From Agelaius tricolor (Eukaryota; Chordata; Aves; Passeriformes; Icteridae): a DNA stretch of 64,000 bases. The stretch covers positions 1,674,001 through 1,738,000 of the forward strand of contig JALJCS010000050.1 of the NCBI GenBank assembly GCA_023055355.1, written 5' to 3'. The number at the start of each line of letters is the position of its first letter. Position 1 is the stretch's first letter. This document shows positions 1,816-42,254 of the stretch, in pieces. A program made the translations under genes and the position numbers. The notes under the pieces were generated by a model, which was not told the DNA's origin, did not search any database, and saw only the letters and a list, made by a program, of their open reading frames with translations.

Positions 1816-2104
1816 CAATATGTATATCTACATATGAAATAATAGTAATGTGAAATAGTGCTGACAATACTAATTTGGTAGCTTTGGCTGCTCAGGAATG
1901 TAACTCTAAATACCCTACAGAACAGGATTGGCCAGGACCCTACTGTCAGTGGTCAACTTTTTGAGATTGTATACAATGTAAAAAGGAGGAAGGGAGGAAA
2001 TTGGCTATTTTCTCAGGGTTTGGTGATACTGTGATGCAGAGTGCTTTGTCTGTTGCTGTGAAAAATACAGTGATGAAGCCTGCAGGGTTTTTCATGTCCC
2101 AGAC

Positions 2105-2760: not shown

Positions 2761-3859
2761 ATGGCCCTCCCGAGGCAGCTGAAGGAGCAGCTCCTGGGAA
2801 AGACAACTCTGAGTCCTGAAAGCTGGGCAGGAACAATGGGAATGTGTCCCTGCAGCCAAGGATTGTGTGTGAGAACAAGGAGATCTGACAGGATATTGTT
2901 TTACACATGCTGCCAGACCAAATCTCCCTGTTTGCCCCAAGGGCCCCTTTGGCAAATGCTCTGATCCACGGGGCTCCATGGGAAGGCTGCTGTGACACTG
3001 AGGGACTTGCACAGGAATTGCATCCAGGAGCCTGGGTGCCCCTCAGGGACTGGGACCCGGCCCCTTCCAGCCAGAGGGGAAAGGGCCCCCCAAGCCTTGT
3101 TAGCCCCAGACAACATGGTAAAGCTGAACAGCAAAGGGCCTGGGGGCATTATTCTGGAATTATAAAGGCGCCAGCTCCATGGACAACAGAATTCTTGTTC
3201 CTAACTCCAAGGAGATTGAGAAAAAAGAATGAAGAACGGTGTCACTGAAGTACTACTGATGTGTGTAAGGTGTACCTTGATAGTCAGCCAGAATCTTTGT
3301 CTGCCACAAACACCTCTAGTGTTTGACCAAGGGGTTAGTCATCAAAATGTAATGATGAGTTCTGATGGATTGCTGAGCTTCTTTTGTAATTCTTTGCTAA
3401 TGATGATGTGCTTTGCTGAGCTCTTCCTTTTGTAATGCTTTGCAGCTGTGCATGATATAAATGCCACAATTCCTTCAGTTGGTGTCTGTGTCTATGGTAG
3501 TGACCCTGCCCCCTGGTGAAACAGGGCCCCCTCTTGCCTAAGTGTTACCTGGGAAGGCAAAAAGCCTCCCTCCAAAATTGCCCCCTTGCTCCTTGTTCCC
3601 CCCCTTCATAGCCTGAGCATGATGTGCTCTGGTCTGGGCTGTGCCCGGGGTCAGTTGGGGTCACCTGTCCTGGCTGTGTCCCCTGCCAAGCTCCCCCGCA
3701 GCCCCAGCCCCTCCCCAGCGTGGCTGGACGAGGGGCAGGACAGGCCTTGGCTGTGCTGCAGCTCAGCAAGAACAAAACCATCTCTGCGTGCTCAGCGCTG
3801 TGCTCAGCACCCGGCCCAGCAGTGTCTCAGTGCCAGGGGCTGTGCCCTCAGTGCCTGCC

Positions 3860-4445
3860 AGGGCTTTCCATGGCAGCTGCCAGGCCAGGTGCCCCAGGTG
3901 TCCCCCCCAGTGCCGGTTGCCATGGAAACAGTGCCCAGCCCTGCCCCTTTCTGTCTGGCTGACCTGGCCTTTGGCCCTGGCAGTGCCCTTGGCTGCTGGT
4001 TCCTGGTGCCCGAGCGGCCAGCGCGGCACAGGGCAGGTGGCCATGGCACAGCCCCCAGCAAGGGATCCCCTCTGGCTCTGGGCACTGACACCAGCCCTGA
4101 GCAAGGGGCCCAGGGCAGCTTTCCATGCCCACCAACCATCACAACGGCTCCGGGCATTGCTTGCCCTGGCACCAAACCAAGGAACGGGTCCCCGTGGCCG
4201 TTGCCATGGCACCTGCTGGCACCAACCAGTGTCACTGCAATTGTACCTGGAACAGCCCTGGCACCGCTTTGGCCTCAGGGTTGCCATGGCAGCCCAGGGC
4301 AGCAGTAGCTCTGCAGGCAAGGGGCCATGGAACCTGGCTGCAGAAATGGCTCCTGGGGCTGCTTTCCAAGGAAACCTGAACTGATGGCAGTTGCCATGGC
4401 ACCCTAACCCAGCACTGGGGTCCCTGCAGTGTCCATGGCAACAGC
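3860..4445. promoter_or_regulatory. Cluster of X-box-like palindromic boxes (copy A)
   Basis: At least six variants of GTTGCCATGGMAAC occur in about 580 bp: near 3,868, 3,917, 4,199, 4,280, 4,390 and 4,432. The one near 3,917 (GTTGCCATGGAAAC) closely fits the RFX-family X-box consensus, which is known from MHC class II and ciliary promoters. The segment is GC-rich and no convincing gene adjoins it, so a regulatory role is only inferred. It may equally be a degenerate repeat. Confidence 0.35.
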
Positions 4446-5034
4446 CCCTTGCAATGGCCCACTGCCTGTTGGGATGATGATCCACCCTCACAGCTGGCCC
4501 AGGGCAGGGCTGGAGTGCTCTTGGTGCCACCTTGGGCTTGGCACACACTTGAGGAGGATGTCTGTTTGCAATGGGGAAACTCAGGAGTTTTAGATGGCTT
4601 CAAAACTCAAAGAAGGAAAATCCCTCTTTGCCTGAGTGCAGCCACTTCTCCAAGCAAAGCAGCTCCCAGGTGAGGGAGGAGAGACACCATGGGCTTGGGG
4701 AATGTGGAGCAAGGTTGTCCACACTGGCTCAGAGCTCAAGGCACAGCTTCTCTGAGCAGGCCAGACCTCCTTAGGACAGTCCCTGCATCAATATCAGTCA
4801 CCAAATGCTGCAGTCACCTCTTGTGTAATAAGAAAAGCAATAAATGACACCCTTTCAAATAGGAATACATATTTCCTAGAAGCTCTTTGAGCTATTTCTC
4901 CATAACTTTGAAAGGAAACCCTCCTAATGAACTGCACTGGAGCAGAGGGAAATCAAGGCAGAGCCATGGTTTGTCAGGATTTGCTTGATCCTCATGAGCC
5001 TCACTGTGCATTTGGAGCTGAGCCCTTGAACCTC

Positions 5035-5600
5035 AGGGCCTGGGAGGAGATTGCACAAACCTTGCCAGGAGTCAGAGTCAGAGGAAACACCCAAAGTGTC
5101 TCCAGGCATTCATGGCTCCCACTGAGGTCCCTGTCCAACACAGGCTCCTCATGGACTCCTTGGAGGAGAGAATTGGTGGCCAGGATGGCACAAAAACCTC
5201 TCAGACACTCAGTGTGGAAAGGAAAATCCAAAGTACCTTCAACACCTTGAGTGTCTCAGAGCATGAATGAGCCCCACTGAGTGTCAGTACAAAGCTCTCC
5301 AGGGACTCATTAACGCAGATAATTGGGGCCATGATTGCACAAAGCTCTCCCAGAGTCTGGATCCAAAGGGAAACACCAAGTACCTTAAAAGAACTGAAGT
5401 GCCTTGAAGCATTCATGAGCCCCACTGAGTGGTGTTACTGACAGAGCCTCTGCAGGGACTAATTACAGCAGGTAATTGGAGGCCATGATTGCACAAAGCT
5501 CTCAGAGACTGCAAGGCCAAAGCCAAACCCCAAGTCCTTTGAAAAAGCTGCAGCCCCTGCAGGGAGCATTCAGGAGCCCCCAGGGCCATTGCTGAGCAAG
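5035..5600. repeat. ~150-bp tandem repeat, about four units (copy A)
   Basis: Units are marked by ATTCATG followed by a GCCCCACTGAG block near 5,108, 5,263, 5,410 and 5,567. Each unit also has GATTGCACAAA, CTCTC and a CCAAGTNCCTT block. Spacing is about 147-157 bp. Units are diverged from each other but nearly identical between copies A and B. Confidence 0.85.
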
Positions 5601-7848
5601 GCTCCCCAGGGACTCCTTGCAGCAGATCCTTGAGGCCCCTGGGATGTGGGCTAGGGGGGGATGCAGAGGGCAGCACAAGGGGCTGGCAGTGCCCAGCCTG
5701 GCTGGGGCTGGGCCAGGAGGCCCCAGGGCCTCAGCACAAGGTGTCTCCTCCCAGCCCTTGCTGGCACAGACCCTGCTGTGCCCCAGGGCACCAAGCCTTG
5801 GCTTCTCTTTGTCCCCAGCTGCCATCAGTGCCTCCAGTTCTCTGCTCTGCCTTGGGCCTGGGGACACTTTCTCTGTCGTGTCCCTCAGTGGGAGCCACTA
5901 CAAGTCCAAGAAACTTTGGAGTTGGATTGTGACTTGGAGTTCTGCAGAGGCTTCTTCAGCTCCCTCTCAGGGCCTGATGTTCAGGGCCTGAGCACAAAGC
6001 CCCAGAGGGTCCTAAAGTCCTTGTGCTGTGTCTGTGCTGCTGAGCTGGGCCGGGCTCCTGGCCCAGAGGCAGCTCCTGGCAAGGGCAGCAGAGCTGCAGA
6101 GAGACAGCTCTGGGCAGGAGCAGCTCCTGTGCACAGCCCAGCAGGGCTGGGGCACTGCCTGCAGCCAGCCCGGGCACAGCACAGAGGCACAGAGAGCTTC
6201 AAGCAGGCAGGGCTGGGAAGGGGCTGGGAAGTGCCTGGGGCACAATCCCTGCCAGCCCTTGGCACAGCAACCTCTGGCTGCAGGACAATGCAGCTGCAGC
6301 TCCTGCACTGATCTCCTAAAGCTGCAACATCCCAATGCCTGCAGACTCTGGCAGTGCATCTCTGAGGATTTCTGCTGCAGGGGAGCTGAAATGCTCATGA
6401 AGCTCTCACATGCTGAGCAGTCTCAGAATATTTTCAAGACAAGGATTTTGATTAAAATGAGGCAATTTCCTAAGACTTTGTGTTCAGATTCCTACTACTG
6501 GAGAGTGCCAGGGAGGGAGGATAATTATTAAAGGACGATTATGAATTTTTAGTTATGAATTTTGGCAAGTGGTGCCTGAGATCACCAAACTGTTCCTTTT
6601 AGTGACCAGCAGGTTAACAGGAGATCCCTAATGTGCCTTCAGCCACTGTGCCCATGGACAGCAGCAGCAGCAGCTTTGCTGGAGCCATCAGGCTCAGTCT
6701 GAGCTGTCCTTTCTCCAAGCTGCAAAGAGAAGCTGCCCCCAGGCAGTGCCCTGCAAACAGGCAGGGTTCTGTCAGGCCAAGGAGAGTGCACAGAGCTTTG
6801 GGCTCTGTGAGTGCTGGCACAGAGAGATCAGGCACAGGGAAACCCCTGCAGGAGGAAAAGCTCCAGGAAGCAGAGAGAAGATCAGGGAAGGAGAGAAAAC
6901 AGAACCCAGCAATGCTGTGGCAGGGAGCGTTGAGAGATGTGCACAGGATCCCCTGCAGTGCAGCCCCTCCCTCTGAACCAGCCCCCTCCCTCCTGTGCCC
7001 CAGCCAAGCCTCTGCCCTCAGGCCCGGGGCTCCAAGGTGTGCAGCCCCTCCTGTGCAGGCAGAGCTGCAGCAGAGCCGTGGGGCAGCTCTGCAGCCCCGG
7101 GCCCAGTTCCCTCTGCAGAGCACAGGGCTGGGAGCAGCTGCCCGGCCCTGGGGGCTCTGGAGGGGCACAGCTGGCTCAGGGTGATGCTGTCCCCAGGGCC
7201 CGGCTCTGGGCAATGCTGTCAGGGCAGCCAGGGAAGGAGCTGCATCTCCCTTCAGCCAATGCCAGCAGAAGGACACTTGCACGTCCCTCTGAGATTTCAG
7301 TCCAGGCTGGGAGCTTCACCCCAGCGTGCAAACCTGTCCTAGAGCATCTCTGAGTGATAAGATCCATGGGCAAAGGCAGAGGTGTTGTGACCCTGAAAAT
7401 GCTGCTGGGTTGGTGGGATGAGCAACGTGAGTCCTTGGCTACAGAAGTGGAGCTGGGCTCTGCTGGATCCATCTGCTCTCACAGTACCTGGGGTTTGTAA
7501 GAGGAACGTGGGAGTGTGAACATCCTCCAGCTGAGAAAAGTGAAAGCCCAGAGGAACTGCAAACAGAATGAAGTGACAGATCATCTGCCCCCAGTCTCCA
7601 CTCATTATCTTGCCTCAGGGAAATCAGTCTGTTCTACCAGAGGGCAGCAGAAATGCTCAGGGTTTCTGATATCCAAGAGTACCAGGAAGTCCATGGAAGG
7701 AGCTTAAAAAGAAAACATCAGAACTCTGAAACACAAGAGCATGTCCGTGTGTGTTACAAAGGAGGGTGTGTGGGAAGTGGCTTTGATTTTGGTTACAGGT
7801 ATCTCCTCTAACCCTTCACTGTCCTTTTCTCCATGAACAGGTGCCCAT
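5600..7848. other. GC-rich non-coding stretch upstream of the receptor pseudogene (copy A)
   Basis: No convincing gene is seen. Open frames on both strands are Ala/Pro/Gln-rich and overlap each other, as expected from GC-rich, stop-poor DNA. The part from about 5,700 to 5,930 resembles 9,150-9,390. The stretch just before 7,849 ends in CTCCATGAACAG, a plausible splice acceptor for the receptor coding exon. The same holds for 36,650-38,898 in copy B. Confidence 0.6.
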
Positions 7849-8644
7849 GTGCAGCCACAGCAAATGTCCAACAGCAGCTGCATCAGCCACTTCCTCCTGC
7901 TGGCATTGGCAGAGCCGGGGCAGCTGCAGCTCCTGCACTTCTGCCTCTTGCTGGGCATCTCCCTGGCTGCCCTCCTGGGCAACGGCCTCATCATCAGCGC
8001 CAGAGCCTGCGGCCACCACCTGCACACGCCCATGTTCTTCTTCCTGCTCAGCCTGGCCCTCCCTGACCTGGGCTCCATCTGCACCACTGTGCCCCGAGCC
8101 ATGCACAATTCCCTCTGGGACACCAGCACCATCTCCTACACTGGATGTGCTGCACAGGTCTTTTTCTTTTTGTTCTTTATCGCAGCAGAGCTTTCATTCC
8201 TGACCCTCATGTGCTCCGACTGCTACGTGTCCATCTGCAAAGCCCTGCACCACGGGACCCTGCTGGGCAGCAGAGCTTGTGCCCACATGGCAGCAGCTGC
8301 CTGGGCCAGGGGCTTTCTCACTGCTCTGCTGCACATGGCCAATACATTTTCCCTGCCCCTGTGCCATGGCAATGCCCTGGGCCAGTTCTTCTGTGAAATC
8401 CCCCAGATCCTCAAACTTCCAACCCCAGGGAACTTGGGCTTCTTGCTGTTGGTGCCTGTTTATCATTTGGCTGTTCTGTGTTCATTTTTGTTTTCTCCTA
8501 TATGCAGACCTTCAGGCCGTGCTGAGCATCCCCTCAGAGCAGGGACAGCACAAAGCCTTTTCCACCTGCCTCCCTCCCCTGGCTCTACCTCTGTTTATCA
8601 GTACTGCAGTGTTTGCCTGTTGTTGCAGGCTCCCAGCCAGGTAA
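7849..8644 (+). pseudogene. Olfactory receptor, family-14 type, frameshifted (copy A)
   Basis: This is a seven-helix odorant receptor relic. TM1 carries GNGLII, TM2 carries HTPMFFFLLSL, and the first part of TM3 is intact. The DRY-box position reads SDCYVSICK, so the Arg is replaced by Cys. TM4 (AHMAAAAWARGFL) and the FFCEIPQILKL segment are typical of the large avian OR14 (gamma-c) group. In TM5, near 8,460-8,520, the frame shifts: KAFSTCLP of TM6 is found in the next frame. That frame stops at 8,644, before TM7. A full receptor has about 310 residues, so TM7 and the C-terminus are missing. A start at 7,864 (MSNSS) is more typical than 7,849. Confidence 0.88.
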
Positions 8645-8699
8645 TAATTAGCATTGTCTCCATGATTGCAGAAGGCTGATCCATGGCTTTATTCTACTA

Positions 8700-9400
8700 T
8701 ATTATATCATATCCTACTGTACTTATTAAGGAACTCCTCCCCTTACAGACAGTGCGATACAGCTTTGCCCTAATTGCTCAATCCCTGCAAACACCATGCA
8801 GTGGCCAGGCAGAGCTGTCAGCAAAGGAAGGGCCCAGCCAGGTGGGGCAGCCGGGGGATGCCGACAGCCTGCAGGGACAGAGGCCAGGGCAGGGACACCA
8901 TGGGACAGCCTGGGCTGCACAGGGCACAGGGATGGGCAGCAGCTGCAAGACAGCCCTGCCAGAGCCAGCTTGGGCAGCACTTTGGCCATGGCTGCTGGGC
9001 CTGGGGCCAGGAGGGGACAAGTGACCCTTGCAGGCCTGGGGCCTCATGGCCTCCTTGTCCCTGCTCAGCAGCCTGGCAGGGGCCACCCCACGCTCCTGCC
9101 CCTGGGATTGCACATCCCCACATGCCAGTGCCCATCCCGGGAAGAGCCCTGAGCCAGGAGGGAGGGACAGGATCTGCCTGGCCAGGCCCTGGGGCTCAGG
9201 CCTTGGCCCTTTGCATTCCTGAAACACATCCAGGTGTGCTCAGCACCAGAGACACCTTTGCCTTGCTTGTCCCCACCTGGCATCACTGCCTGCAGTGTTC
9301 TGCTCTAGCTGGAACCTGGGGACACTTTCTCAGTTGTGTCCCTGACAGGGATCTCTTCAAAGTACAAGAAACTTCAGTTTTTCAATAGAACTGAGTTCTT
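8700..9400. other. Non-coding stretch after the receptor pseudogene (copy A)
   Basis: No gene is supported. An AT-rich start (8,690-8,740) is followed by GC-rich sequence. The end, about 9,150-9,390, is a diverged copy of 5,700-5,930 (shared block around GGGGACACTTTCTC then GTGTCCCT and CAAGAAACTT). Copy B equivalent: 39,750-40,450. Confidence 0.5.
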
Positions 9401-9404
9401 GAGG

Positions 9405-9815
9405 GTTCTGTGACATCACTGAGGGGATGGTGACATCACAGAACTGGCTGTGATGTCACAGACCTGGCAATGACATCACAGAGCAGATTATGAGGCCATA
9501 GACAGAGTCTGCCATCATAGAGGGTGGCTCAATGGCATCAGAGAGTGGGTTGTGACATCACCTGGTGGCTGTGGAACATCACAGATGAGACTGTGACATG
9601 ACAGGTAGACTTTGTGACATCAGTCTTCTGTGACATCACAGCACTGCTCTATGGCATAACAAAGTGACTTAGAATTGGTTCTCTGACGTCACAGGAGGCT
9701 GTGTGGCATCACAGGGCTGTGTGACATCACAGGGTCAGTGTGACATCACAGGCACTGTGTGACCTCACAGGTTGCTGTGTGACATCACAGGGTTTGTGTG
9801 ACATCACAGGGGCTG
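9405..9815. repeat. Irregular array of TGACATCACAG units (copy A)
   Basis: Roughly twenty copies of a TGTGACATCACAG-like core occur at 15-30 bp spacing. The core TGACATCA is one base from the CREB/ATF site. A perfect CRE palindrome TGACGTCA occurs near 9,685. Most likely a degenerate minisatellite, although it could bind bZIP factors. Confidence 0.85.
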
Positions 9816-10117
9816 TGTGAGGTCCCTGGGGAGGTCACTCTGCCCCGGCCCCCCTCACAGTTCCCCCCAGAGCAGTCCAACCCTCCTCGAGCACAGCGGG
9901 GTCCCCTGTCCCCCCGGGTCCCCCCGCCCCCGGCCCCGCAACCTCCCCCAGAGGATGTTCCACGAGATCGACCCCAGAGCCTGACACGGGGACGGGGGGC
10001 CGGGGCCCTGGGGGTGGCACAGGGGGACAGGGACCCCCCGGCAGCGTCCCCGTGTCCCCCAGGGCCAGAGCCTGGGCCAGGGCTCCTTCACCCTGCTACC
10101 AATGAGGCCTTGAGAGC

Positions 10118-11250
10118 GCTGTGACACTGTGGGGCCCTGTGAGACCAAGGGACCATTGTGGCACTGTGGGGATCTGGGACATCATGGGACCAGTGTGACA
10201 TTGTGGGGCCCTGTGATACCAAGGGATCGTTGTGACACTGTGGGGCCTCATGGAATCATGGAGACCACTGTGACATTGCTGGGCCTCATGGAACCAAGGG
10301 GACTGTACTGACACTGTGTGGCTCCATGGAATGTAGGGATCATTGTGGCAGTGAGAGGCCTCATCAAACCAAGGGTCCATTGTGACATTGCAAGGCCTCA
10401 TGGCACCATGGAGACCATTATGACACTTTGGGATGTCATGGAACCAAGGGGCCATTGTGACACTGCAAGACTCCATGGAACCAAAGGTTCATTGTGACAT
10501 TGCAAGGCCTCATGGAACCATGCAAAGACAATTAAGACACTTTATAGCCTCATGGACCCAAGGGGCCATTGTGACACTGAGGGGCACCATGGAATCACAG
10601 AGACCATTGTGACACTGAAGGGCAACATGGAATCATGGAGACCATTGTGCCCCTGGGGGTCCCCACAGAACCAAGAGGACCATTGTGATATTGTGGGGCC
10701 TCGTGAAACCAAGAGGCCTTTGTGACACTGCAGGGCTGCATGGAACCAAAAGTCCATTGTGACACTGCAGGGCCTCATGTCATCAGTGGTCCATTGTGAC
10801 ACTGTGGAGCCAGAGGAGACCATTGTGACACAGCAAAGCCCCAGGGTCCAAAGGTCCATTGTGACATTGCAGGGCTCATGGAACAGAGGAGTCACGCGAC
10901 ATTGTGGGGCCTGGGGAACCACGGAGACCATTGTGACACTGCAAGGCCTCATGGAATCCTTGGGACCATTGTGACACTGCGGGGCCTTATGACACCTGGG
11001 GGCCACTGTGACATTGTGGGACCCCATTGAACCTGGGGGCCAGTGTGACACTGCAGGTCTTCGTGTAATCAAGGCGCCACTGTGACACTGTGGGACCCCA
11101 TTGGACCAAGGGGCCAGTGTGACACTGCAGGTCTTCTTGTAATCAAGGGGCCATTGTGACACTGCTGGAACCCATGGAATCAAGTCACCATTATGACACT
11201 GAGAGGCCTCATGGATCCAAGGCACCATTGTGACACTCTGAAGCCCCATA
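10118..11250. repeat. ~37-bp minisatellite, about 30 units (copy A)
   Basis: The consensus unit is roughly GTGACACTGTGGGGCCTCATGGAACCAAGGGACCATT in short form, repeating every 36-42 bp (for example 10,121; 10,158; 10,194; 10,230). Scattered related units recur at 13,240-13,350 and 13,940-14,090. Minus-strand open frames rich in SVTM and CHNG arise only because many units keep a triplet spacing. Confidence 0.92.
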
Positions 11251-11269
11251 AAACCAAGGGAACACAGAA

Positions 11270-11825
11270 CGGCTCTGGCTGGTTTGGCCTCCCATGGGCT
11301 GCCTGACTGCTCCAAGGGACCTTTGCATGTAGAGGGTCACTTCTCATCTGCTGCTGAAACACTGGGACTCTTTGCTTTCCTTCCCAATAGATATGAGCTG
11401 TCCATCTGCTCCAGGCACCCATGGCCAGAATTGGGATTTCACCTCCAAATTTCCTTCAGTCCAGGGATTCTTCCCATAGGAATATTGCCAGAACAAGTCT
11501 GGCTGGCAGTGGTTTCACAAGGGTCACCTCTCATCTGTCCCCAAAACATTGGGGGAGGCTCCATGCTGTCCTTCCCATGAGAAAGAACTGTCCTGCTTCT
11601 CCAGTTGCCCATGGCCGAGATTGGGTTTCCACCTCCAAAATTCCCTAAATCCAAAATCTGCTATTCCTGACAAGTCTGGCTGGCCTTGGCCTACTGAGGC
11701 TCTCACCTGCCTTCCAAACCTTGGGGCTCTGTGCTTTCCTTCCTATGGAAAAGAACTGTCCTTCTCAGCCAGGTGCCCATGGCCACAATTGGGATTTCAC
11801 CTCCAACATTGCCTGTTGTGACAGA
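11270..11825. repeat. ~180-bp tandem repeat, three units (copy A)
   Basis: Each unit contains GCCCATGGCC then a GATTGGGWTTYCACCTCCAA-type block (near 11,417, 11,606 and 11,777), preceded by CTTTCCTTCC and AACTGTCC. Unit spacing is about 170-190 bp. Confidence 0.85.
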
Positions 11826-12640
11826 CTGGAGGAGATTGTTGGCTCCAAACATTTTGTGTGTGGGGGAGGAAGGGGCAGGTCGGGCCTTGCCCTGCCCTGT
11901 AAGCCCAGCCCTGCCCTGCCCTGTGACCCCAATGCCCCCAGGGGCCTCCAGTGGGTTTACGGTTTCTACCTGAACCGCGGCACACTGAACCCCCAGCACC
12001 GCCGTCCAAGCCTGGGCACTGGGGCCCTCTTGGCTCTACTCAGTGCTGCTGCTGTACTCGGGGCACCCCAAACCCCGGTAGGGACCTGTGTCCCCCCACT
12101 CCAGGGATTGTGCACGACTCACACTGCCCCGATCCTCCCCGCAGCCGGAGCTCCCTTCGGGGTTTGCGTGCCAACTCACCAATTCGTCTGCCACCCTCAG
12201 CACGTCCTGAGGGCGCCTACCAAGCCTGAAGGGGGAAGGCCGACCCCTTGCGTGCCACTCACATTTCTATTCCTCCCACGCCCGGAGGGGGGCCCACCTT
12301 ATCCCCCTGGGAGGCGTCTCACTCACTCAGGCTTCTCCTGCTTCCCTCCGTTTCTGGCCGGTCCCCTGGCAGGAGTCTGGAACCGCGGTACTCGGAGGCC
12401 CACAGCTGCTTCGGGGCTCCGAGCTGCTGGGCCCCATCTCACACACACTTCTTTCGCTTGCCTCCTACTCCTGACACCGCCTTTACTTACCCATGCTCCT
12501 CCACACTCTTTGCTCCTAGGCTGCTGCCGACCGCTCCAGATAAGGCCAGATATCCCGCAGGCCCTCAGTCCTCTTCGGGTGTGGCCTGTCCCGGACCAGT
12601 CCCCCAGCCTGTTATGAATGGCCCGTGAGCAGCTCTTTAG
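11826..12640. other. GC-rich stretch with no supported gene (copy A)
   Basis: A 298-codon plus-strand frame crosses this stretch and is kept in copy B (42,705-43,601). Its start lies in the 180-bp repeat and its product is Pro/Leu/Ala-rich without a recognisable domain. A coding role is not supported. It may be the internal or U5-side part of the LTR-like unit that follows. Confidence 0.4.
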
Positions 12641-13100
12641 TGATTTCAGCTTTACTGGAAACAGTCTAGGCAGGGCACCCATGGGGTGTGCGCACACCAC
12701 CGCTCCCCAGATGGCGTGGAGGAGGAGGAGGTCAGCTCCGTCCTCCAGCAGAGCTGGGTCTTCTTTCCTCACAAGAGTCTCTGAGTAGACGCCTGTTGGT
12801 TTCAGATTCATAATATTTATACTGCTCGTGGCCCACTCTGGTTAGGTTGATGAAGGCTAAAAGTTGTGACCAGGGTCTTTGATATTGTCTTATATTCCCT
12901 CTGTTTAGAAGTGTTATTTTGATTCTTTATTTGCATGGTGGTTCGTTGTTCTAGGGGTTTTTGTTATGTAATCCCTTTCTGCTAAGTCTTATGGGAGTTT
13001 CATATTTTCTTATTAGGTGACGTCATCATCCTCTTTATGGTCTCGGGTGGTTTGCCATTTTAGATGAGAGTGGGAGTAGCGGGGAGAATACCCAACAGTA
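12640..13100 (-). mobile_element. LTR-like unit, minus orientation (copy A)
   Basis: Read on the minus strand, the segment begins TGTTGGGTATTC near 13,099. It has a TATAAATATTA box at 12,811-12,821 and a weak AGTAAA-type poly(A) signal about 160 bp downstream. The layout resembles a retroviral U3-R-U5. The 3' end and target duplication are not seen. Copy B equivalent: about 43,625-44,090. Confidence 0.35.
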
Positions 13101-14169
13101 AGGGGATTTACATAATCATAAAACCTTTAAAAAAACAATTAAAACTAACACCGACACTTTACTTAACTATAAAACATTAAACAAACCATCTATATCTATC
13201 ATTGGAACTTTCTATTAACTCCATTAACAATGTATTCTCTACAACACTGTGGGAAGTTGTGGAACCAAGGGGATCATTGTGGCACTGTTGGGGCCCATGG
13301 AACCAAGGGGCCAGTGTGCAAACAAGAGGCCATTGTGAGCCTGTGGGGTGTAACAGCCCAGAACACTGAAATGCTGCAGGTAAACAAAGGCTCCTTGAGT
13401 TTGGTGCACAGCAGGAACACCAGCCACATATTCTCAAGAGGTCAAAAGGACACAAAATGTTACTGGCAAAGTACAAAAACACAAGAAACTTTGGAAGAGG
13501 ATTTAATGCAACATCCAATTACACAGAAGACACTTATCATAGCAGTAACTTCATTAACTTAGCTCATTCAACCTCAAAATCATTGAACACATAAACTGCT
13601 GAGGTGCCTAAAAATGTTGCATATAAAGAGCATTAGAAAGAGAAGAAAGAGAGAGAGACAGAAAGACAGAAGCTCTATAGAAAGACACACATATGACTAT
13701 CAGTTCCTAGGGTTCCAGTGTGGGTGAGACACAAACCCCAGGAGAAGGCAGAGTCCATACCAGGGGCTGACCTTGTGCTCCGTGTTTTTAAGACCCCGGG
13801 CCTTTGTGGGCCTGCTCCCAGGTGGGATTTCTGATGGCTCAGGCAATTCGGGCTGGGTTAGCACTGTCCCCACTGTGTGACTGACTGACAGCTCATCCCA
13901 CAGTGTCTCAGGACATTGATCTCATCCAGCCTCTGACAGTGACCATGGTGACACCAGGAACTTCATGGAACCATGGGTCGGTTGTGACCAGGTGGGTCCA
14001 AGGACACCACGGTGACACTGGGGAACCTCATGGGAACAAGTGGCCATTGTGACGCTGTGGATCCCCATGGAACCAAGGGAACATGGAACAGGCTGATGCC
14101 TTCAGTTTTAGCTGTCATATCTCCAGATTCTGTACTGCATTAGTCTGTAACTCTGGACTTCATACAGAG
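13101..14169. other. Non-coding stretch with minisatellite scraps (copy A)
   Basis: No gene seen. It holds two small groups of 37-bp-type units (13,240-13,350 and 13,940-14,090) and a purine-rich tract (about 13,630-13,680, GAAAGAGA-like). Copy B equivalent: 44,091-45,160, which lacks a few bases near 14,075. Confidence 0.5.
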
Positions 14170-14525
14170 TGTTAGCAAGTTCTCTTCACAGTGTAGTCAG
14201 ACAAAACAATCCTTTTCCAGCCCCAGAACCAGATGCTGTTGCAGCTTCAGGCCCCAAAAGGGCAAACAACAGCAAATTTAGGAGAGCAAACTGGGAGGAT
14301 GGGACTGCATCACCTGAGGCTGTAATTGGACATTTAACCCCAATATTTAAATGGACCAAACCTTATAAAAGTGGGAAAACCCCTGACCAGTCATCCATTT
14401 TGAGTGTAGCCTTGGCTGGGCTCTTGTCCTGCTCAAGGTGAATCCTTTGAAGGCCTTGTAATAAATCCCTACTTTATTCCTTTAACTCTGCCCAGCCTCT
14501 GTTCCAGGGAGCCTCTCCAGGCATC
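14170..14525 (+). mobile_element. LTR-like unit, plus orientation (copy A)
   Basis: The segment starts TGTTAGCAAG, has a TATAAAAG box near 14,364 and an AATAAATCCC poly(A) signal near 14,460, and ends near CAGGCATCA. Box spacing fits a short avian ERV LTR. No target duplication was identified, so the ends are tentative. Confidence 0.5.
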
Positions 14526-15617
14526 AAGCTGATCAGTGCCCGGAGAGCAAAGGATTGCTCAGGAAGTCTCCCTCACCCTCGGACAGCCCCATCTGACCAG
14601 GGCAAAAATCCAGTGGGGAGGAGAACATTATCTTGGGCCTTGGAAGGTGTGTTCTGCCTTTGCTTTGCACTTCCTTTCCTTGGACATTTGTGACATCCAC
14701 TTTGAGGAACTGAGGCTCATGGAGTTGGCACCAAATCTCCCATGGGGCTCCTCAGAGTGCACAAAGCCCAAAGGAGCTGCACCTCGACTAGAATTAGCTT
14801 CAAGAATTAATTTTGTCAGGAGTGAAATTAATGAAAAAGATTTCAATGAACAATTACTTTAAATGATTTTTTCCCATTTTCAAGATTTTCTCTCCTTAGT
14901 TTTCTTTTCATAAGAAGCAATATAACATTATTTTCTAATTGATATTGAAGCAGGGTGTTCCCTAAGGAAGTCTTGATTGGTAGGAAAGATCTTCCTTGAG
15001 GTCAGGCACTGCCTCTATGGATAAAACTTTGCTTCTCACATTTTCAATACTGCCATTTCTCTCCTGGGCCTTCAGGCACCTGCATCCCTTTTCACCTTCT
15101 AGAAGGCAGTCATCTGCGTCTCAGCTGCTTTTATTATTTAGGACAGGAATGATGTTTTCTGTGGTGGCGAAACAGCAGCCAAAGGCTGCAAACTGAATCC
15201 TGACCTGAGCCGACAGAAGCCATGAGAAAGCTGACAACTCTTTGTGAGAACAGAGATGTGCAGCAGTGAAAAACAACTTGTTTTTCCTGAGATAGAGCTC
15301 GAGGACTGTGCAAAACAACCGACTTTCCCTGAAAAAGAGCTCTAGGACTGTGATAAACGCTAGCCACCCGCATAAACTGTTTTTTCACTCTTAGATAGAA
15401 AAATGAAAACTATCTCTCACAAACAACTTTTCCTGCACTTACACACCAGGGGTTTGAGTGACCAATCAATCACCTGTGAGTAAAACATCTCCAAACACAT
15501 TCTGCACATCAGCACAAGACAGGAGAAGCAAATGAGATAAGCATTGTTCTCCTTTTCCTCTGAGGCTTCTCAGCTTCCCAGGAGAAAAATCCTGGGCGGA
15601 GGGATTTTTTCAGAGAA
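14526..15617. other. Non-coding stretch (copy A)
   Basis: No gene or element recognised. A local duplication is visible: GAGCTCGAGGACTGTG near 15,297 and GAGCTCTAGGACTGTG near 15,339, each preceded by TTTCCCTGA- or TTTTCCTGA-like sequence. Copy B equivalent: 45,516-46,597. Confidence 0.4.
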
Positions 15618-16119
15618 TGTGAATGCCCCAGTGTTAGAGATGAGTAATGAGATGGTTGGCTCTCCCAATTAGAGGGTGAACATGATCAGTATGTTAAGAG
15701 AAGTTGTACAGATGTAGAGTTCTGTTACTGCAATGTGTCCCCCCCCCGCCCAGCATTGTTGTCCCGGGATGATCTTGGTAGTGCGGGCATTTGGGGAGGG
15801 GCAGATTGTTCCTAAGAGGCTCGGCTTAGCAACAGCTGAGCTCCAATCCAGTTCCAAGAAAGCAGTCTGCAGCAATGGACAGCGACCAAGAGTCAAGAGA
15901 CAGCCTTTGGGAGGAGCTAGGGCTGCCTGTTGCAACAGCAAGGATATAAAAGGGAGAGCAGCCATTGTGTGGATGAGCCAGCCACGTGGTTACCAGCCAC
16001 AAAGTGGGGGAGGCTCCCAGCACTGTCACTTTTTCCTTATTTAGTCCTTTTGTTGTAAGTTTCGTTAAGTTTTTAATAGACCTTTCAAAATTTTGAGAAG
16101 TGAGCACTCATTTCTCACA
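15618..16119 (+). mobile_element. LTR-like unit, plus orientation (copy A)
   Basis: The interval runs from TGTGAATGCC to a TTTCTCACA end, about 502 bp, with a GATATAAAAGGGAG TATA box near 15,944. TG...CA termini suggest a solo LTR. No clear flanking duplication is visible and no canonical AATAAA follows the TATA box, so the assignment is tentative. Confidence 0.5.
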
Positions 16120-16421
16120 GGGAGAAAAAGTTTTAAAAGAAAGTTGTTCTGAATTTTTTTTTTTCTTTTAAACCCAGGCCATTCCTTCCATGCTCACAGT
16201 GAACCACAGCCTTTCTCACCACCTGCACAGCCACCCCCCACTGAACCCACTCCCCCTGGACTCTGCACAACTCCCAACACACCATTTGTCTGGGGGAAAG
16301 CACAGACTGTGTCAAGGCAGCAGAGTCCAGACCTGGCCTGACTTCCCCAGACCACTGGAAAGGAGGAAATCCAGACCCACGGACACACACACGGACACAG
16401 AGCAAAGCTTTGCTCAAAGGG

Positions 16422-16427
16422 TTTATT
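16422..16427 (-). terminator. Poly(A) signal of the secreted-protein gene (copy A)
   Basis: AATAAA on the minus strand about 215 bp beyond the TAG. It is the first canonical signal downstream of the coding end. Copy B: 47,404-47,409. Confidence 0.55.
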
Positions 16428-16641
16428 GACTATTGATTGATTATTCTTCAGGGGAAATGGCCCAGGGCTCAAAGGGGTCAGGGGGTTCCTGCAGGGATGA
16501 TCATCTCCTCATGCCACTGGAGAGGAAAAAGGACACTGGTCCTTGCCAGCCTAAAAGACAAAGCCCAGAAGGTGACCCCTGGAGCCCACTGGGCCATGGC
16601 TGGGCTTTGTCCCCAGCCCTGTCCCTGCAGGCACGGCTCAC

Positions 16642-17918
16642 CTAGGCATCCAGAGAGGCAGCCAGGCGCTTCTGCCGCAGGAGAGCCCGCAGCTCTTCAG
16701 CCACAGGGGGCTGGGGACAAAGGCAGCGTTAGAGACACACTGGGGGCACTGGGCTGCACTGGGAGGCAGGGGAGAGCAGGGGGGCCTTGGGGAAGGGGCT
16801 GTGGGAGCAATGGGGTGCAGGAGCTGCTGTGCTGCTGCCCAGAAGCACTGGGCTCCTGGCCAAGAGGCACAGCTGGGGCAGGGGCTGCGTCCTGGCTCAT
16901 CCAGGGGCTCCTGGGCTGACAGGGATGGGAATGCAGCAGGGCCCTGGGCAAAGGCTTCCCTGGGGAGCAGCCCTGGGCCAGGGCATTGTCTGGGCTGTCA
17001 GGAGGGGTGCACTGGGCTCTGCTGGGACAGTCTGGGATGGCCTGGGCTGTGCTGGCCAGGCAAGGGGAGGCTCTGACAGCGGCAGAACTCGTGGTACCCA
17101 CCAGAGGCGTCTCCAGGACCGCGACATTGTCTAAATCCAACTGCAGAGAGACCAGGAGACCTCGCTGGTCACTGGGATGTCCCCGGTGCCAGCAAGGGAT
17201 GGGGGCACACCACTGCCCCCCAATGCTTTGAGGGGATGCCCTCCCATGCCAGCAGCCCACTCACCTCCCGCAGATCATCTTGGGTTCCTTCCAGGAGTGC
17301 CTGGAAAGAAGAACAAAGGCTGGGTCTGGACTGGACCTTGTGGGGCTGGGGGGGACACGGGTGCAGGGAGCAGGGCGCAGGCAGAGGGATGGGAATTCAG
17401 GGCCTCCAAGGAGATCTGTTTGAGGTGGGGGGAGACCCAAAGACACTGATCTGGGGTCACTTGAGGGCCCAGGGGACAGGGCTGGGGGTGTGGAAGGAGC
17501 AGGGTGTGAGGTACAGGGGAGGAGAAAGGAACTGAGGTGTAGGGACATGGGAGGGCAAGGGAGGGGCTTGGTGGTGACAGGAGAATGAGGACAGGTGGGG
17601 ACAAAACCAACGGGACTGGGAGATGGTGTGGGAGTGGGGGTGAGTCAGGGAATTGTACAGGGGGACCCCTCTGCAGTGGCCAGGAAGAAAGGCAAAGGAT
17701 TGAGGGGGGACATGGAAGGAAAGGCCTCAGGAATGGTCAGTGGGAGGGCGTTTGGGGACCCTGAATGGGACACAGAGGAGGCACCAAAAGGGTGGGAAGG
17801 GAGGCCAGAAAGGGCAGGATGTGGGGACAGCGTTTGGCTGGTGCCTCACCTTGGCCTGTGCCGGGGGGCACAGCAGGATGGAGAAGAGCAGGGCCACGCT
17901 GAGCACAGCCACCTTCAT
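16642..17918 (-). CDS. Small secreted protein, 70 aa, four coding exons (copy A)
   Basis: Coding exons on the minus strand are 17,918-17,850, 17,300-17,265, 17,140-17,102 and 16,710-16,642 (69, 36, 39 and 69 bp). Every intron has GT and AG ends, all junctions are phase 0, and the joined frame is open to a TAG. Residues 1-22 are a clear signal peptide (MKVAVLSVALLFSILL, then CPPAQA), so cleavage should leave about 48 residues. The mature part has no cysteine. It starts with an acidic ALLEGTQDDLRE exon and ends in a basic, helix-prone exon with RALLRQKR, a possible convertase site. A GATAAAG box lies 53 bp upstream of the ATG and an AATAAA about 215 bp after the stop. I do not recognise the family. 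An apolipoprotein-like or hormone-like peptide is conceivable but unsupported. Confidence 0.72.
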
Positions 17919-17970
17919 CTTCCTCTGGCTCTGGGCAGCGCTGCCTGAGGCTGCAGCAGGTGAGGAGCAC

Positions 17971-17977
17971 CTTTATC
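17971..17977 (-). promoter_or_regulatory. TATA-like box of the secreted-protein gene (copy A)
   Basis: GATAAAG on the minus strand, 53 bp upstream of the start codon, is placed as expected for a core promoter with a 20-30 base 5' UTR. Copy B has the same box at 48,954-48,960. Confidence 0.45.
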
Positions 17978-17979
17978 CC

Positions 17980-19257
17980 TGCCGGGACTCCTCCCTGCAC
18001 CCTCCCTGCCAGCCCCCAGGCCAAAGCCCTGCTTGGCACAGCCCCCAGCCCTGGCCACAAGCCCAGCCCTGGCACAGAGTCCATCCCACCCCACCTGTGG
18101 CACGGATCCAGCCCCCTTGCCCGGCATCCCTCCAGCTTCCTGCACGGGGCAGCTGCCCCTGGAAGGGCCCAGGCACCTGGGGGGCCAAGGGGGGCAGGCA
18201 GGGAGCCAAAGGCACCTGGGGACCCTGTGGGCACAGCCCCCAGTCCAACACAATCCATCCTCCAACAGCCCCCAGTGCCAGATCCCCCATCTCCTGCTGC
18301 CCCTCCCCTCCCAGAGCTTTCCCTGGGGGACACCCCAGAGCTGAGCCCGGCCCCAAACCCAACATGTGGGAGAACAAGGGGAACAAGGGACATGGGATCA
18401 GGTGGCTGATTGGCATCTCAGCCACTGCAGACACTGGGGAGCACTGGGCAATGCTGAGCACCTGCAGACAAGGCTGAGGCCTGGGGAATGCCTCACGAGT
18501 GACAATTCCCACATCCACACAACCCGATAGCCCTTTCCCTGCAGATGCCAAACCCCACCAAGCTCCATGCCCACAGCACTGTCCCGAGGGGAATATGCCC
18601 TGCCCTGCCCCTCATCCTGTCACACCTGCAGCCACGGAGCCCTCCCAGAGCACCTGGGTCATGGCCCTGGCTCTGGGCCCAGGCCAGCACTGGCCCTGAG
18701 CAGGATGTGCCCATCCCAGGCACATGGGGAAGTGGGCACCTGTCCCCAGGCAGCCACTCGGAGCTAATTGGGGTAACAGAGGTGCCCTGTGAGGAGGAGG
18801 AGGGGTGTTGGTGCCCTGCCAGCCTCTCTGACAAGCCCTGTTTACCCAGGCCCTGAGGCACCAGGAGCACATTCAGACATCTTGGGCTTCCAGGAAGGAA
18901 AATCCACAGTGAAGTGGTTCCTGAGAGCTGTCCAAGGCTGTGATTCCTGTTGGACATTCCAGGGCATTAGTGAAGGGTTCTGCACATCTCTTTCCCCAGG
19001 GACAATGTGCATCCATCAGAGAAGTGTTATGGCCCAGCTGGGAAAACATTTCAGGCCACTGCCTTGATTGTTTGCTCTGGAACTCACCCAAGGAGGCACA
19101 GGGCCCAAGGGGGAAGATTTTCCTTGGGGATTTTGCTGCTTTGTTCCCTTGGAGGAGAGACCAGAGTGTCCCATGGGAGATTCTTGACCAGATGGACAAG
19201 AGCTGTGATGTCATTGGTTTTCTGAGGTCACCTTGGAGAGAAATTGAGGCAGTGTCT
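17980..19257. other. Non-coding stretch between the secreted-protein gene and the ERV (copy A)
   Basis: Upstream sequence of the small gene. It is GC-rich up to about 18,350, then mixed. No further gene is supported. It is among the best conserved parts of the duplication (copy B 48,960-50,246). Confidence 0.5.
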
Positions 19258-19264
19258 GCAGGAC

Positions 19265-21143
19265 ACTTTGTCAATTCTTTTCTTAAAACACATCAGTGGT
19301 GCTGAAATGATAACAACTATGAGAAGGACCCACAATAAACTTTTAAGAATGGGGGCCACCCACACAGGAAGGCCCCACTGCATGAGAGTTCTGTCCATCA
19401 TGTCCACAACTTTATTTTCAGTAAGAGTCTTCATTTGCTCTTGCATTTGTTTGATGGTGGCCTGGATCGATGTGCTTTTCCATGACAGGTTAAAACAACA
19501 AAGTCCTTTGAAATCTTCACAACCATGGCCATAGGAGAGCAGCAGGAAGCCGATGGCCGCTCTGTTCTGAAGGGTTGTGGGAACTCAGCACATCACTCCG
19601 GATGTCCAGAGTTACCAAGAGAACACTTGGGGGGGGCTTGGAAATCCTGGAATGGGTCCAGGAGCATCTGGTGGCTTGATTTTAATCCTTCTAAGGATGT
19701 GACACCTGTGTGAGGACGTGAGAGTCCCTTGGGAGTGAGTGGTGCAAGAAAGATATATTTACAGGGTGAAATATAGATTTTAGGGTTTTTGGTACAGGGG
19801 GGTTATGGAGACAAGATGGAGGGATCAGGGCGTGCCTTGTCCTTCTTTCTTCTTCTTGTCATCCATTTTCTGTGGTGATGTTGGCACTTGGGGATTGGTT
19901 CATGGTAAAGGTGCACTTGCTAATATGGGTGAAAGGTATTGGGAAATAAAGGTAAATATGATATACGTAGTTTTTAGTATAAAAAGACACGACCACCCCG
20001 TGGGTGGTCAGAGTGCCCTTGGCTGCCTTGCAGGTCAGACCTCTGTTGGGCAGAAAGAAAATTCTGTAGATAAGAAATAATAAACAATCTGAAGACTGAG
20101 AAACTGAAGAGTCCAGACTCGTCCTTTGAAGCGCGGGCCGCCCCAGAACCACCCTGCCCGTGTCCGGGCAGAGACAGACAGCCGAACCGGACAAAGGGTG
20201 GCATGTCTGGTGGTTTCCTTGTCCGCTAGAAGGTCTGATAAGGCAGCGGATGTAGCCTTGGTCTGCTTACTAAGCCAGCACTCCAGGTGAGAAAGCTCAC
20301 CGAGGGCCTTCGCAGCTGCAACCCATGGTAGAAAGATGGAAACAGCGACCCTCTTCATCTTGCCCGAATTATAAATTTGGCCATCACAATTTTGATTGAA
20401 TTGGGAGTACGATCTTTTCTGGGGCGCCAATTGAGTTTCTTGTTTCCAATTTTTAATTTGGGTAGTGTTTGGGGTGAGGGTAGTAAGCGGGCCAAGGCTG
20501 CAGGGGCCCCCTTTGATCTTTGAGGGGATCCCTGCCCACTCCCTGTCACCACACATGAGAAACACTCCCCTGGGAAGCACTCTGGGAAACGGAGAGGACT
20601 TAGATAATGTTTTGGCAGTATAATTGCACCAGTCAACATCATTGTATCTCTTATCATTTGGTGATCTATCTTTTCTCACTATCATCTGTGGTTCAGATTT
20701 CTCATGCCAATTTTGTTGGGGTGGCTCCTAGAAAAAGTTGACACAAGAAGTCGCTTTGAGGAGCCCGGTAGGTCTCGTTCTTGGAGGTCCTGTGGTGCAT
20801 GGGGTAAGATCTTCATCCACTCGTCCCAGGTGTCTACCAGGGTGGGCTTCTTACCTGCACAGGCATATTCATTTGGTGACAGGGGGATTCCCACCAGACA
20901 TGTAGACAGCGGGTCTTTTGCACCTCCCATGGCCATGCAAAAGTTATCCTGCTTGAGAGATTTCCCCAGTGTGACCCATAGGTTTTCTGTTGGTTGTGGC
21001 ACGACCCATCCAACCGCTGTTTGGATGCACAGGAGCACAGTGACGGTGGCAGCAGCTGTTAAGGTATTTCGGGGTGTCCTGGGAGTGGCCATCTGGTCCT
21101 CCAGTGAGTCAGGTATCGACTGTTCGACCACTGATAGAAACAT
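19265..21143 (-). pseudogene. env: Alpharetrovirus-like env, broken (copy A)
   Basis: A surface-subunit start with a leader-like hydrophobic stretch is followed by a WVTLGKS and STCLVGIPL region (21,143 downward). A frame change near 20,700-20,740, shared with copy B, separates it from the next part (CGDREWAGIPSK, then the fusion-peptide-like FLPWVAAAKAL). The transmembrane subunit is split by a solo LTR at 19,576-20,193 and continues to a membrane span (LLWVLLIVVII) near 19,310. The last codons are lost where env joins cellular flank. It cannot make an envelope protein. Confidence 0.85.
19576..20193 (+). mobile_element. Solo LTR, 618 bp, inserted in env of copy A
   Basis: The insertion starts TGTGGGAACT and ends CCGGACA. 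It is flanked by a perfect 6-bp direct repeat AAGGGT (19,570-19,575 and 20,194-20,199). Copy B has the empty site with one AAGGGT (about 51,634-51,639). A TATAAAAAG box lies near 19,979 and an AATAAA near 20,085, giving plus orientation, opposite to the host provirus. Six-base duplications are typical of class II (alpha/beta) retroviruses. Confidence 0.95.
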
Positions 21144-26180: not shown

Positions 26181-28173
26181 TGCCTGGGTTCGCTGCTGGG
26201 GCGCGGAGGATTCGGCAGCGTCTTCGCGGCCACGCGGCTCTCGGACGGCGCCCCGGTGAGCGGCGGGGCCGGCGGCGGGCGCAGGACGAGGGGGCGGAGG
26301 AGGACGAGGAGGAGGAGGAGGATGGGGCTGGGCAGGGCGGGCGGCGAGCTGAGCCCGCTGCTGTCCTTGGCTTGCAGGTGGCCATCAAGAGGGTGCCACG
26401 GAACCGCGTCCGGCACTGGGGCGAGCTGGTGAGTGAGCGGGGCCAGCGGCAGCAGCCGGGGCTGCCGGGCGGGGATGAGCCGAGGCCCGGCACGGTGGAA
26501 GCCGCCAGGACGCCTCGAGGGGGAGCGGGCGTGGGCGCAGCGCAGGGCGCAGAGCATCCCGGGCTGGCTCAGGGCTTCCCCAGGCCTGGCACGGCATCGG
26601 CCCCACTGAGGGCATCGTGCTCCTCCCGCAGCCCGACGGCAGCAGGGCCCCGCTGGAGATCGTGCTGCTTGCCAAGGTGTCCACTGGCTTCCCCGGCGTG
26701 GTCGAGCTGCTGGAGTGGTTCGAGCTGCCCAACCACATCGTGATGGTGATGGAGCGGCCAGAGCGGTGTCTGGACCTGCAGCGTTTCATTGAGGCACGGC
26801 GGTTCCTGCCCGAGGAGGTCGCGCGGGAGCTGTTCCGCCAGGTGCTGGAGGCCGTGTGGCACTGCACCAGCTGCGGGGTCCTGCACCGCGACATCAAGCC
26901 AGGGAACATCGTGCTTGACCTGGCCACCCAGCAGGCCAAACTGATTGACTTTGGCTGTGGCACCTACCTGCAAGAGACAGCCTACACCCACTTTGCAGGT
27001 GAGCCCACGTAAGGGTGTACTCCTGGTCCCGGGATCTCATGGCCCAACATCTCCCAGCCCAAGCTGGCTGTGGCAGCGGGGATTCTCCCTTTTGCTGCCA
27101 GTCAGGGGACTGAGTCTTCAGCTGAGTTGCTTTAGAGCGGGGCTGGGTGGGCAGCCATCTTCCAGCCCTGCTGGCAGCCTTTGCCAGCCACTCTGCCCAG
27201 GACTGGGGCTGGGCTGGGGCAGCCAGCCCGACCAAAACCCCCGTGGGTGGGGGTAGCAGAGAGGGGGGAGGAACCTGTGCCCCAGCCAGTTTGGTGTGCA
27301 GGCGAGAGGAAGGGCTTGCACTGCTCCACTCGCCCTGTTTGCCTTGGCTTCCTAATATTTTTGGGGCAATGCAGGCAGGGAGGATAAGGGCATGTTTTCC
27401 CCAGCACAGAGGGCTTTTCCTTTGCTTGTCATGGTCAGGCTTAGCTGGGGCTTCCTCTGCCCTCTTCTGACACCAGTGGCTTCTTTTCCACGCCTTAGTT
27501 TGTGCACAAGTCCCAGGTGCTGGCGAGAGGGCAGTGGTCACCCTGTGTGCCACTGATGCAGCCCCCGCAGGCCCAGGGATGCTGGGGCCAGGCTCTGGGA
27601 GCAGCAGCATCCCCCTGCTGAACTCCATCTGTATTCCATAGGAACACCGTCCTACAGCCCCCCGGAATGGAACGACTTTGGCTGGTACCATGGCGAGGCA
27701 GCAACGATCTGGTCCCTGGGCATCCTGCTGCACCAGATGGTCTGCGGGGAGCACCCTTTCAGGAGGGGCCGGAACCTCAGCTGGGGCCAGCTCCCGCTGC
27801 CACAAGGGCTCTCTCAAGGTGGATCCTCTTCTCTGGGCACGGGGGGAATCCCAGTGCTGGGAGCCAGCAGCGGGCTCGTGAGCATCCCGCTCTGGCAGCT
27901 GCTGAGGAGGTGGCACATGTCCTGCTCTCCTCCAAAACAGGGAATGGATGGGAAAGTTTAGGCCCAGCCCTGAGCGCATCCAGCAAGGCCTGGGCATGGC
28001 AATAGTGGGGCAAAGCAGACAGGAGCCTTCTCTGGCTGACCGGCACTTTCTGCTTTCTCTGCCCAGAGTGCAAAGATCTGATCAGGTGGTGTTTATCCGT
28101 GAACTCCTTGGAAAGACCCACATTAGAAGACCTGTTCTGTGATCCTTGGGTGCAGGATATTCCTCGGCCGTAG
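25689..28173 (+). CDS. PIM1-like: PIM-family serine/threonine kinase, intact, about 422 aa
   Basis: Coding segments are 25,689-26,255, 26,378-26,428, 26,632-26,998, 27,642-27,818 and 28,067-28,173. They sum to 423 codons including TAG, and all junctions have GT/AG ends with matching phases. Cuts fall where vertebrate PIM genes are cut. The N-terminal 150 residues are Arg/Pro/Ala-rich and not PIM-like. The kinase domain follows: Gly loop LGRGGFGSV, catalytic Lys in VAIKRV, PIM-type hinge ERPERCLDL, catalytic loop HRDIKPGN, DFG, and PPEW in place of APE. All catalytic residues are present, so activity is plausible. An acceptor-like CCCGCAG at 26,148 leaves open whether the Arg/Pro-rich part is a separate first exon. 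PIM kinases are constitutively active survival kinases; PIM-like copies are, to my recollection, expanded in songbirds. Confidence 0.85.
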
Positions 28174-30892: not shown

Positions 30893-31557
30893 TGGAGCTG
30901 ACTTTCAGCACAGCCCCTGGCCCTGTTCCCTCCCGTGTGCAGCGGTGTCAGAGCAGCCTGAGGCACCTGGGAGCCCCCAGTGCCAGCAGGGACTTGAGAT
31001 GGCAGCCCTGGGCTCCTGGAGGCTGTGCAAGGAACGCAGCTGGGCACTCCCTGTCCATGGGGAGCTTGCAGATGGAAAAGGCTGCTGTGCCCAGGCAGCT
31101 CCAGGGGCACAGAAAGGAGGCTCTGGAGCACTGGATCTGTGCCAGTGCCACAGTCCTGGGCAGCAGCCAGCCAGCCCTGGGGGAACAGAGGGCACAGCAA
31201 GAGGGACAGAAGCAGGCAAGGGCAGAGACTGGGAAGAGCCAGGCCCGCGAGCAGGAACAGCTGCTCCATTGCACTCTTGGAGAAAGCTCTTGGCTGCTTC
31301 AAAGCGCTGAAAGGCGTGAAGGGCAGAGAGGAGGCCACAGCAAACAATGCTCCTGTTTGCACAGCCTCCCCTCTGCGTGTCCCAGAAGGAATTGGATGGA
31401 CTGGATTCGTCTCTCCGAGTGCTCTCGTTCAGCATGAGCAGCTCAGCACCAGCAGCTGAAGGAGCTGAAGCCTCAGGCCACAGGAGCTGGGCAAGAGGGA
31501 ACTTCTGGAGCAAAGTAATGCTGCTGAAATAGCCCCAGCTGAATGCAGCGGATATCA

Positions 31558-31652
31558 TCATGGAATCACAGAATCCTTTCTGTTGGAAAAGCCCTCTGAG
31601 CTCACCCAGTGCAGCCGCTCAGCCAGCAGTGCCAAGCCCAGCACTAAAGCAC
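31558..31652 (-). mobile_element. CR1 LINE 3'-end fragment (copy B)
   Basis: Same fragment as at 511-605, carried along in the duplication. Confidence 0.7.
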
Positions 31653-42240: not shown

Positions 42241-42254
42241 AAGGGAACACAGAA

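Follow-up and report, generated by a model that had tools for sequence, protein, structure and literature searches.

A candidate family of secreted peptides with tiny phase-0 exons is amplified in the genome of Agelaius tricolor

The minus-strand gene described here very probably belongs to a real protein-coding family: its structure is present in the Agelaius tricolor sequence and is matched by gene models of other birds, and we infer that it is transcribed in this species. The explanation that, taken whole, best fits our observations, and that we hold with somewhat better than even confidence, is that the gene is one member of an amplified bird family of secreted peptides in which a promoter-signal-peptide cassette precedes the mature exons and the product is processed at dibasic sites. 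Our analysis covered a stretch of 64,000 nucleotides, hereafter the window (C50:1674001-1738000 of a 1.16-Gb assembly), and a search of that genome with the protein that the window gene encodes.

Results

Structure of the window gene

The initial annotation had proposed a secreted-peptide gene of four phase-0 exons that plain calling of open reading frames misses. Cutting the exons from the minus strand bears this structure out, with exons of 69/36/39/69 bp, all junctions GT-AG and in phase 0, and joined exons encoding a 70-residue protein with a signal peptide, MKVAVLSVALLFSILLCPPAQAK/ALLEGTQDDLRE/LDLDNVAVLETPL/PPVAEELRALLRQKRLAASLDA followed by a stop. The arrangement is more than chance, because gene predictions from other birds include relatives whose exons match, and the reading as a secreted-peptide gene missed by such calling is supported. 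The features of the gene and of its second copy in the window are as follows.

17868-18227, minus strand: cassette, the promoter and first 17 codons, common to the type-A paralogues described below (from comparison with C87:27609)
17970-17977, minus strand: TATA-like box GATAAAGG, 59 bp before the ATG, the same distance in 52/52 copies
17951-17959, minus strand: possible splice acceptor CTGCTGCAG, optional, for an upstream non-coding exon; in 52/52 copies
17850-17918, minus strand: exon 1, signal peptide MKVAVLSVALLFSILLCPPAQAK, cut from the window sequence
17265-17300, minus strand: exon 2, ALLEGTQDDLRE, cut from the window sequence
17102-17140, minus strand: exon 3, LDLDNVAVLETPL; some Haemorhous models lack it
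16642-16710, minus strand: exon 4, PPVAEELRALLRQKRLAASLDA and stop, cut from the window sequence
16422-16550, minus strand: exon 5, non-coding, with TGGCATGAGGAGATGAT at 16516-16500; from signals in the sequence and a match to duck P0034
48833-48901, minus strand: second copy, exon 1, identical to the first
48247-48282, minus strand: second copy, exon 2, identical to the first
48084-48122, minus strand: second copy, exon 3, identical to the first
47624-47692, minus strand: second copy, exon 4, identical to the first

The TATA-like box reported earlier is present, although not at the 53 bp from the ATG then given, and the reported AATAAA lies at 16427-16422. It closes exon 5, which we draw to its end, the true end lying slightly beyond; the remaining signals of this exon are a stop codon, TAG, followed directly by GTGAGC, and an acceptor that ends at 16551. 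The duck model P0034 encodes WHEEMISPGRT, which matches the window exon-5 DNA read in frame. At the other end of the gene, the sequence of Haemorhous P0035 changes, by eye, in a splice-like manner at about the position of CTGCTGCAG, and the models P0003 and P0017 look colinear with the unspliced leader.

Properties of the predicted protein

As the initial annotation had suspected in naming no matching family, the window protein has no Pfam match; ten relatives match no Pfam or NCBIfam model, and matches to solved structures were at chance level (best E 0.23). Exons 2-3 carry a charge of -6, and exon 4, which contains RQKR, has a charge of +1 as a whole (+2 by hand count for the part up to RQKR) and a helical moment of 0.68. 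The relatives' predicted structure is mostly disordered apart from low-confidence helices: AlphaFold gives model A4 (first row P0008) a mean pLDDT of 47.6 with a signal helix alone, and model A5 (first row P0001) a mean of 52.3 with low-confidence helices at 38-48 and 69-84, which in Haemorhous P0001 fall in exon 2 and exon 4. Beta-defensins and ovodefensins have a six-cysteine mature domain, a defining feature that the window protein, with no cysteine after the signal peptide, lacks.

Tiny phase-0 exons, a separate signal-peptide exon and a non-coding last exon also recall the secretory calcium-binding phosphoprotein (SCPP) genes, which lie in the SPARCL1/SCPP cluster and are defined by phase-0 introns, tiny exons, a non-coding end exon and either S-x-E kinase motifs or a P/Q-rich mature protein. 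One relative, P0033 from Myiozetetes, is rich in SSES/SSEW repeats and would suit a divergent SCPP gene, but the window protein contains no S-x-E motif, a defining feature, and few P or Q residues, and Pfam matches are absent for it and for the ten relatives, so that we consider membership of the SCPP genes very improbable.

Copies in the window and across the genome

The gene had been described as present twice with identical exons, and the window does hold such a second copy, all four exons matching exactly at an offset of 30982-30983 bases, but the genome as a whole contains at least 53 four-exon loci. Both window copies lie inside a direct duplication of about 19 kb, in which window positions 1-19267 are repeated at 31048-50251 with a divergence of 2.14% (408/19048 aligned bases). 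The duplicates differ at 0/213 positions in the four exons, 21/549 in intron 1, 4/124 in intron 2 and 4/391 in intron 3; this exon identity is weak evidence alone, because the kilobase 18001-19000 also differs by just 0.1%, a sign of local gene conversion. Divergence across the duplicated block is uneven, from 0.1% to 6.8% per kb, and suggests patchy gene conversion. Elsewhere the window contains an olfactory-receptor-like open frame in each duplicate (7849-8679 and 38899-39729, plus strand; the first was scanned for domains), an open frame with a protein-kinase domain that we take to be PIM-like (26617-27012, plus strand) and endogenous retroviral gene fragments with RNase H, integrase, reverse transcriptase and envelope (52664-56920, minus strand).

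Genome-wide, the window protein matched at least 104 places, comprising signal-peptide and exon-4 exons, on C50 and C87 and at one place on C37. The four-exon loci lie on two contigs, and 53 of the 56 loci of the window type (type B) that we examined carry all four exons. The first fetched set held 54 distinct type-B loci, 52 of them with all four exons; C50:1404052 showed exon 4 alone within a fetched stretch of 9.8 kb. The locus C37:5463905 is broken, with a changed exon-3 donor and no exon 4 found. Beyond the 52, C50:2954642 is a further complete and intact copy, and C50:2932157 has intact exons 1-3 and an exon 4 cut by the end of the fetched stretch.

Among the 52 analysed loci, the joined exons are stop-free in all 52 and every junction is kept in 51, the one exception being C50:1032517 (L055, stretch C50:1023400-1033200), where an inserted base at the exon-4 junction would shift the frame. 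The identical protein is encoded by 41/52 loci; the TATA-like box, the upstream acceptor motif, the stop with its donor, the AATAAA and the 3'-UTR motif are each found in 52/52 copies, and the exon-5 acceptor motif in 51/52. The third intron measures 7.6-7.8 kb in 9/52 copies as against 0.4 kb otherwise. Exons were matched among copies with substitutions permitted and gaps not, and we dropped a comparison of indels between exons and introns because such matching partly builds in the absence of exon gaps. W linkage, considered for the array and its retroviral content, found no support: a search for HIT domains, which serve as an approximate indicator of HINTW, a multi-copy gene of the W chromosome, gave four matches, three on C4 and one on C14, with none on C50, C87 or C37.

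Relatives in other birds

Three protein searches, with 13, 35 and 37 hits, placed predicted relatives in 17 named bird genera, and no named non-bird relative was among those hits. The genera are Haemorhous, Ammospiza, Zosterops, Coccothraustes, Acridotheres, Hirundo, Motacilla, Oenanthe, Pitangus, Willisornis, Myiozetetes, Pipra, Patagioenas, Columba, Bubo, Grus and Anas. These relatives are predicted proteins, neither DNA nor reads; many match the window protein in the signal peptide alone, and some are chimeric or partial predictions, among them the Coccothraustes model and a Grus protein named 'suppressor of SWI4 1'. In the protein database the family appears only as unnamed or misnamed loci. 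Neither the signal-peptide string nor any of five locus names led to a paper in the literature searched, and no title or abstract opening listed by further searches names the family.

The window gene conforms to the family plan, in which a signal peptide starting MKVAVLSVALLF[ST]ILLC sits on its own phase-0 exon and is followed by further phase-0 mini-exons, of which the final coding one surrounds a dibasic site, and by a non-coding 3' exon with a WHEEMI-type DNA motif. Its signal peptide and exon 2 are present at LOC132334783 and LOC132334803 (Haemorhous), VK521_017162 (Ammospiza) and HGM15179_020014 (Zosterops, partial), and in Haemorhous and Ammospiza some isoforms also contain exons 3 and 4 to the C-terminus; other isoforms of these loci have extra, skipped or frame-shifted exons, and no name or function is given for them. 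When NCBI lists numerous numbered isoforms, RNA evidence usually lies behind them. The Motacilla and Oenanthe models keep exons 1-3 and then run into intron 3, leaving exon 4 unused in frame; in the partial Zosterops model exons 1-2 are retained and exon 3 is present in changed form. The initial annotation had named randomly placed stops and loss of splice sites at orthologous loci of related birds as evidence against the gene. This is not what the predicted models of Haemorhous, Ammospiza, Motacilla, Oenanthe and Zosterops show, all of which keep exons.

Further comparisons were made partly by eye. Haemorhous P0003 is without exon 3, and the corresponding segment of P0020 is missing from pigeon P0022; the pigeon sequence LPLSVRVDDVLQQKRQLPELPDA resembles window exon 4 (PPVAEELRALLRQKRLAASLDA), and QKR occurs in exon 4 of both Haemorhous and pigeon. 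Duck P0034 has the family signal peptide and part of the 3' exon, whose reading agrees with WHEEMIIPGRT of Haemorhous P0013 at 10/11 residues. The RVKR of type A and pigeon and the RQKR of type B look like furin-type sites.

Selection and the passenger alternative

The setting of the copies raises the question of whether these genes were merely carried along by an ampliconic repeat that spread recently and also contains pieces of kinase, olfactory-receptor and retroviral genes, their exons looking intact only through youth and mutual conversion. The ~19 kb duplicated block that holds both window copies is in keeping with this reading, as is part of the variation among the 52 copies: the coding sequence is no less variable (18/213 sites) than the upstream region together with intron 3, the latter taken from 43 short-intron copies (86/891, P 0.70), and amino-acid-changing variants are not depleted in number (11/18 against 12.1 expected, P 0.37). 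In contrast, variable sites are fewer in the coding sequence than in the three introns (178/1065, P 0.0017), the frequency-weighted share of amino-acid-changing variants is low (P 0.017, among copies that are not independent) and piN/piS is 0.19. Selection within the genome is weakly supported by these values.

Comparison between species weighs further against passengers. Measured against the window, the Motacilla model differs at 0/48 residues over exons 1-3 and at 11/54 over intron 3 read in the same frame (Fisher P 0.0007), and the Oenanthe model at 4/48 and 12/39 (Fisher P 0.011); the comparison covered these two species, whose models read far enough into intron 3, and Haemorhous P0015 and P0040 also run into that intron. 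This conservation of exons over intron gives moderate support to selection between species, and the same exons recur in other passerines, with a like architecture in pigeon and duck. We accordingly regard the passenger reading as decidedly unlikely.

A promoter-signal-peptide cassette ahead of different mature exons

Two paralogues on C87, which we call type A, have the same promoter and signal-peptide start as the window gene and another mature part. C87:27609 is identical to the window gene at 307/309 upstream bases and 51/51 of the first coding bases, after which, beyond codon 17, the rest of the exon matches at 10/18 bases and intron 1 is unalignable (119/232 columns); C87:14554 behaves likewise, with 147/148 upstream, 51/51 coding and then 10/18. 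Both continue with ADMEGSGVICAG, followed in C87:14554 by QIGGIGDGQ, and have phase-0 exons of 36 and 27 bp. The type resembles swallow and myna proteins, and its signal-peptide start is common to the window protein and to M8220_017240 (Acridotheres), LOC114003630 (Pipra) and WISP_01550 (Willisornis), models that end in RVKR and a short peptide such as SEPLVAEQVELLRE. The type-A mature part is glycine-rich and contains cysteine, unlike that of the type-B window protein.

The break in similarity lies at codon 18, close to the point from which bird species start to differ. The promoter and signal-peptide start thus act together, homogenised between genes or copied from one to another, and form a cassette held constant ahead of diverging mature exons. 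As the likeness among duck, pigeon and songbirds is beyond the reach of conversion within a genome, selection on the signal peptide is likely.

Other sequences carry the same beginning. At about 3678-3747 of C37:5464700-5474500 (L065), a cassette start is joined to other sequence (MKVAVLSVALLFYILLCRPADAW...); this locus and the broken C37:5463905 are paired in inverted orientation. The Myiozetetes protein P0033, named 'osteocalcin 2-like', has the family signal peptide ahead of its SSES/SSEW serine-glutamate repeats, a third mature kind. Type-A introns (L069, L071) are filled with short repeats like ATCCCATTG and CTGGGGGA.

Discussion

Judged from its sequence, the product is most likely a secreted propeptide from which cleavage at dibasic sites yields short helical peptides. 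Each copy would have its own TATA-type promoter and be spliced through tiny phase-0 exons to a non-coding final exon, and the signal peptide would direct secretion and then be removed. The acidic part encoded by exons 2-3 may serve as a spacer or pro-piece before a short amphipathic exon-4 peptide, which would be released or trimmed at dibasic sites, RQKR in the window and RVKR in relatives, such that in type A a SEPLVAEQVELLRE-like peptide of 14 residues would be set free, whereas in type B the amphipathic helix of exon 4 would be shortened. The promoter and the first 17 codons would remain near-constant, probably through gene conversion and selection for strong, tissue-specific secretion, as paralogues and lineages come to differ in their mature exons.

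The size of the array and this pattern fit secretion that demands a high dose, for instance of a mucosal or epithelial defence peptide, with a reproductive-tract or seminal role next. A defence role is plausible, and we put it somewhat short of even. The window gene shares a conserved signal peptide, an acidic pro-piece and a dibasic site with the precursors of cationic amphipathic antimicrobial peptides, and its exon-4 net charge of +1 is weak by comparison with classic members.

Arrays of this kind are often germline genes, which speaks for a reproductive or sexual-conflict peptide whose dosage-amplified array would be expressed in testis, oviduct or seminal glomera. The common myna annotation, from which the M8220 proteins presumably derive, used testis RNA in part, along with liver and heart (PMC10917472). 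Against this alternative, W linkage is unsupported, the HIT-domain matches lying off C50, C87 and C37 and the myna sequenced being male (PMC10917472), and we consider a reproductive function unlikely.

The reading of an amplified secreted-peptide family invites comparison with precursors of frog skin and cone snails, multigene families whose mature peptides vary strongly behind a conserved signal peptide. The bird family resembles them in its constant pre-region, variable mature part and many copies, whereas no sequence relation was found, the bird genes have several coding exons and the peptide is weakly charged (on the comparison systems, frog-skin antimicrobial precursors and conotoxin superfamilies, see PMC6245896 and PMC4278219). 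We tentatively propose that birds possess a system built in this style, with a cassette kept uniform within a genome by conversion and strongly conserved across neognaths, lineage-specific mature peptides and, in this songbird, more than 50 near-identical genes that would supply a high dose.

If expressed, these genes would constitute a strongly amplified avian family of secreted proteins, and would show in nature how genes with different mature parts can have a promoter-signal-peptide cassette in common. For bird proteomics, and for work on mucosal immunity and reproductive biology, the family offers a direct target.
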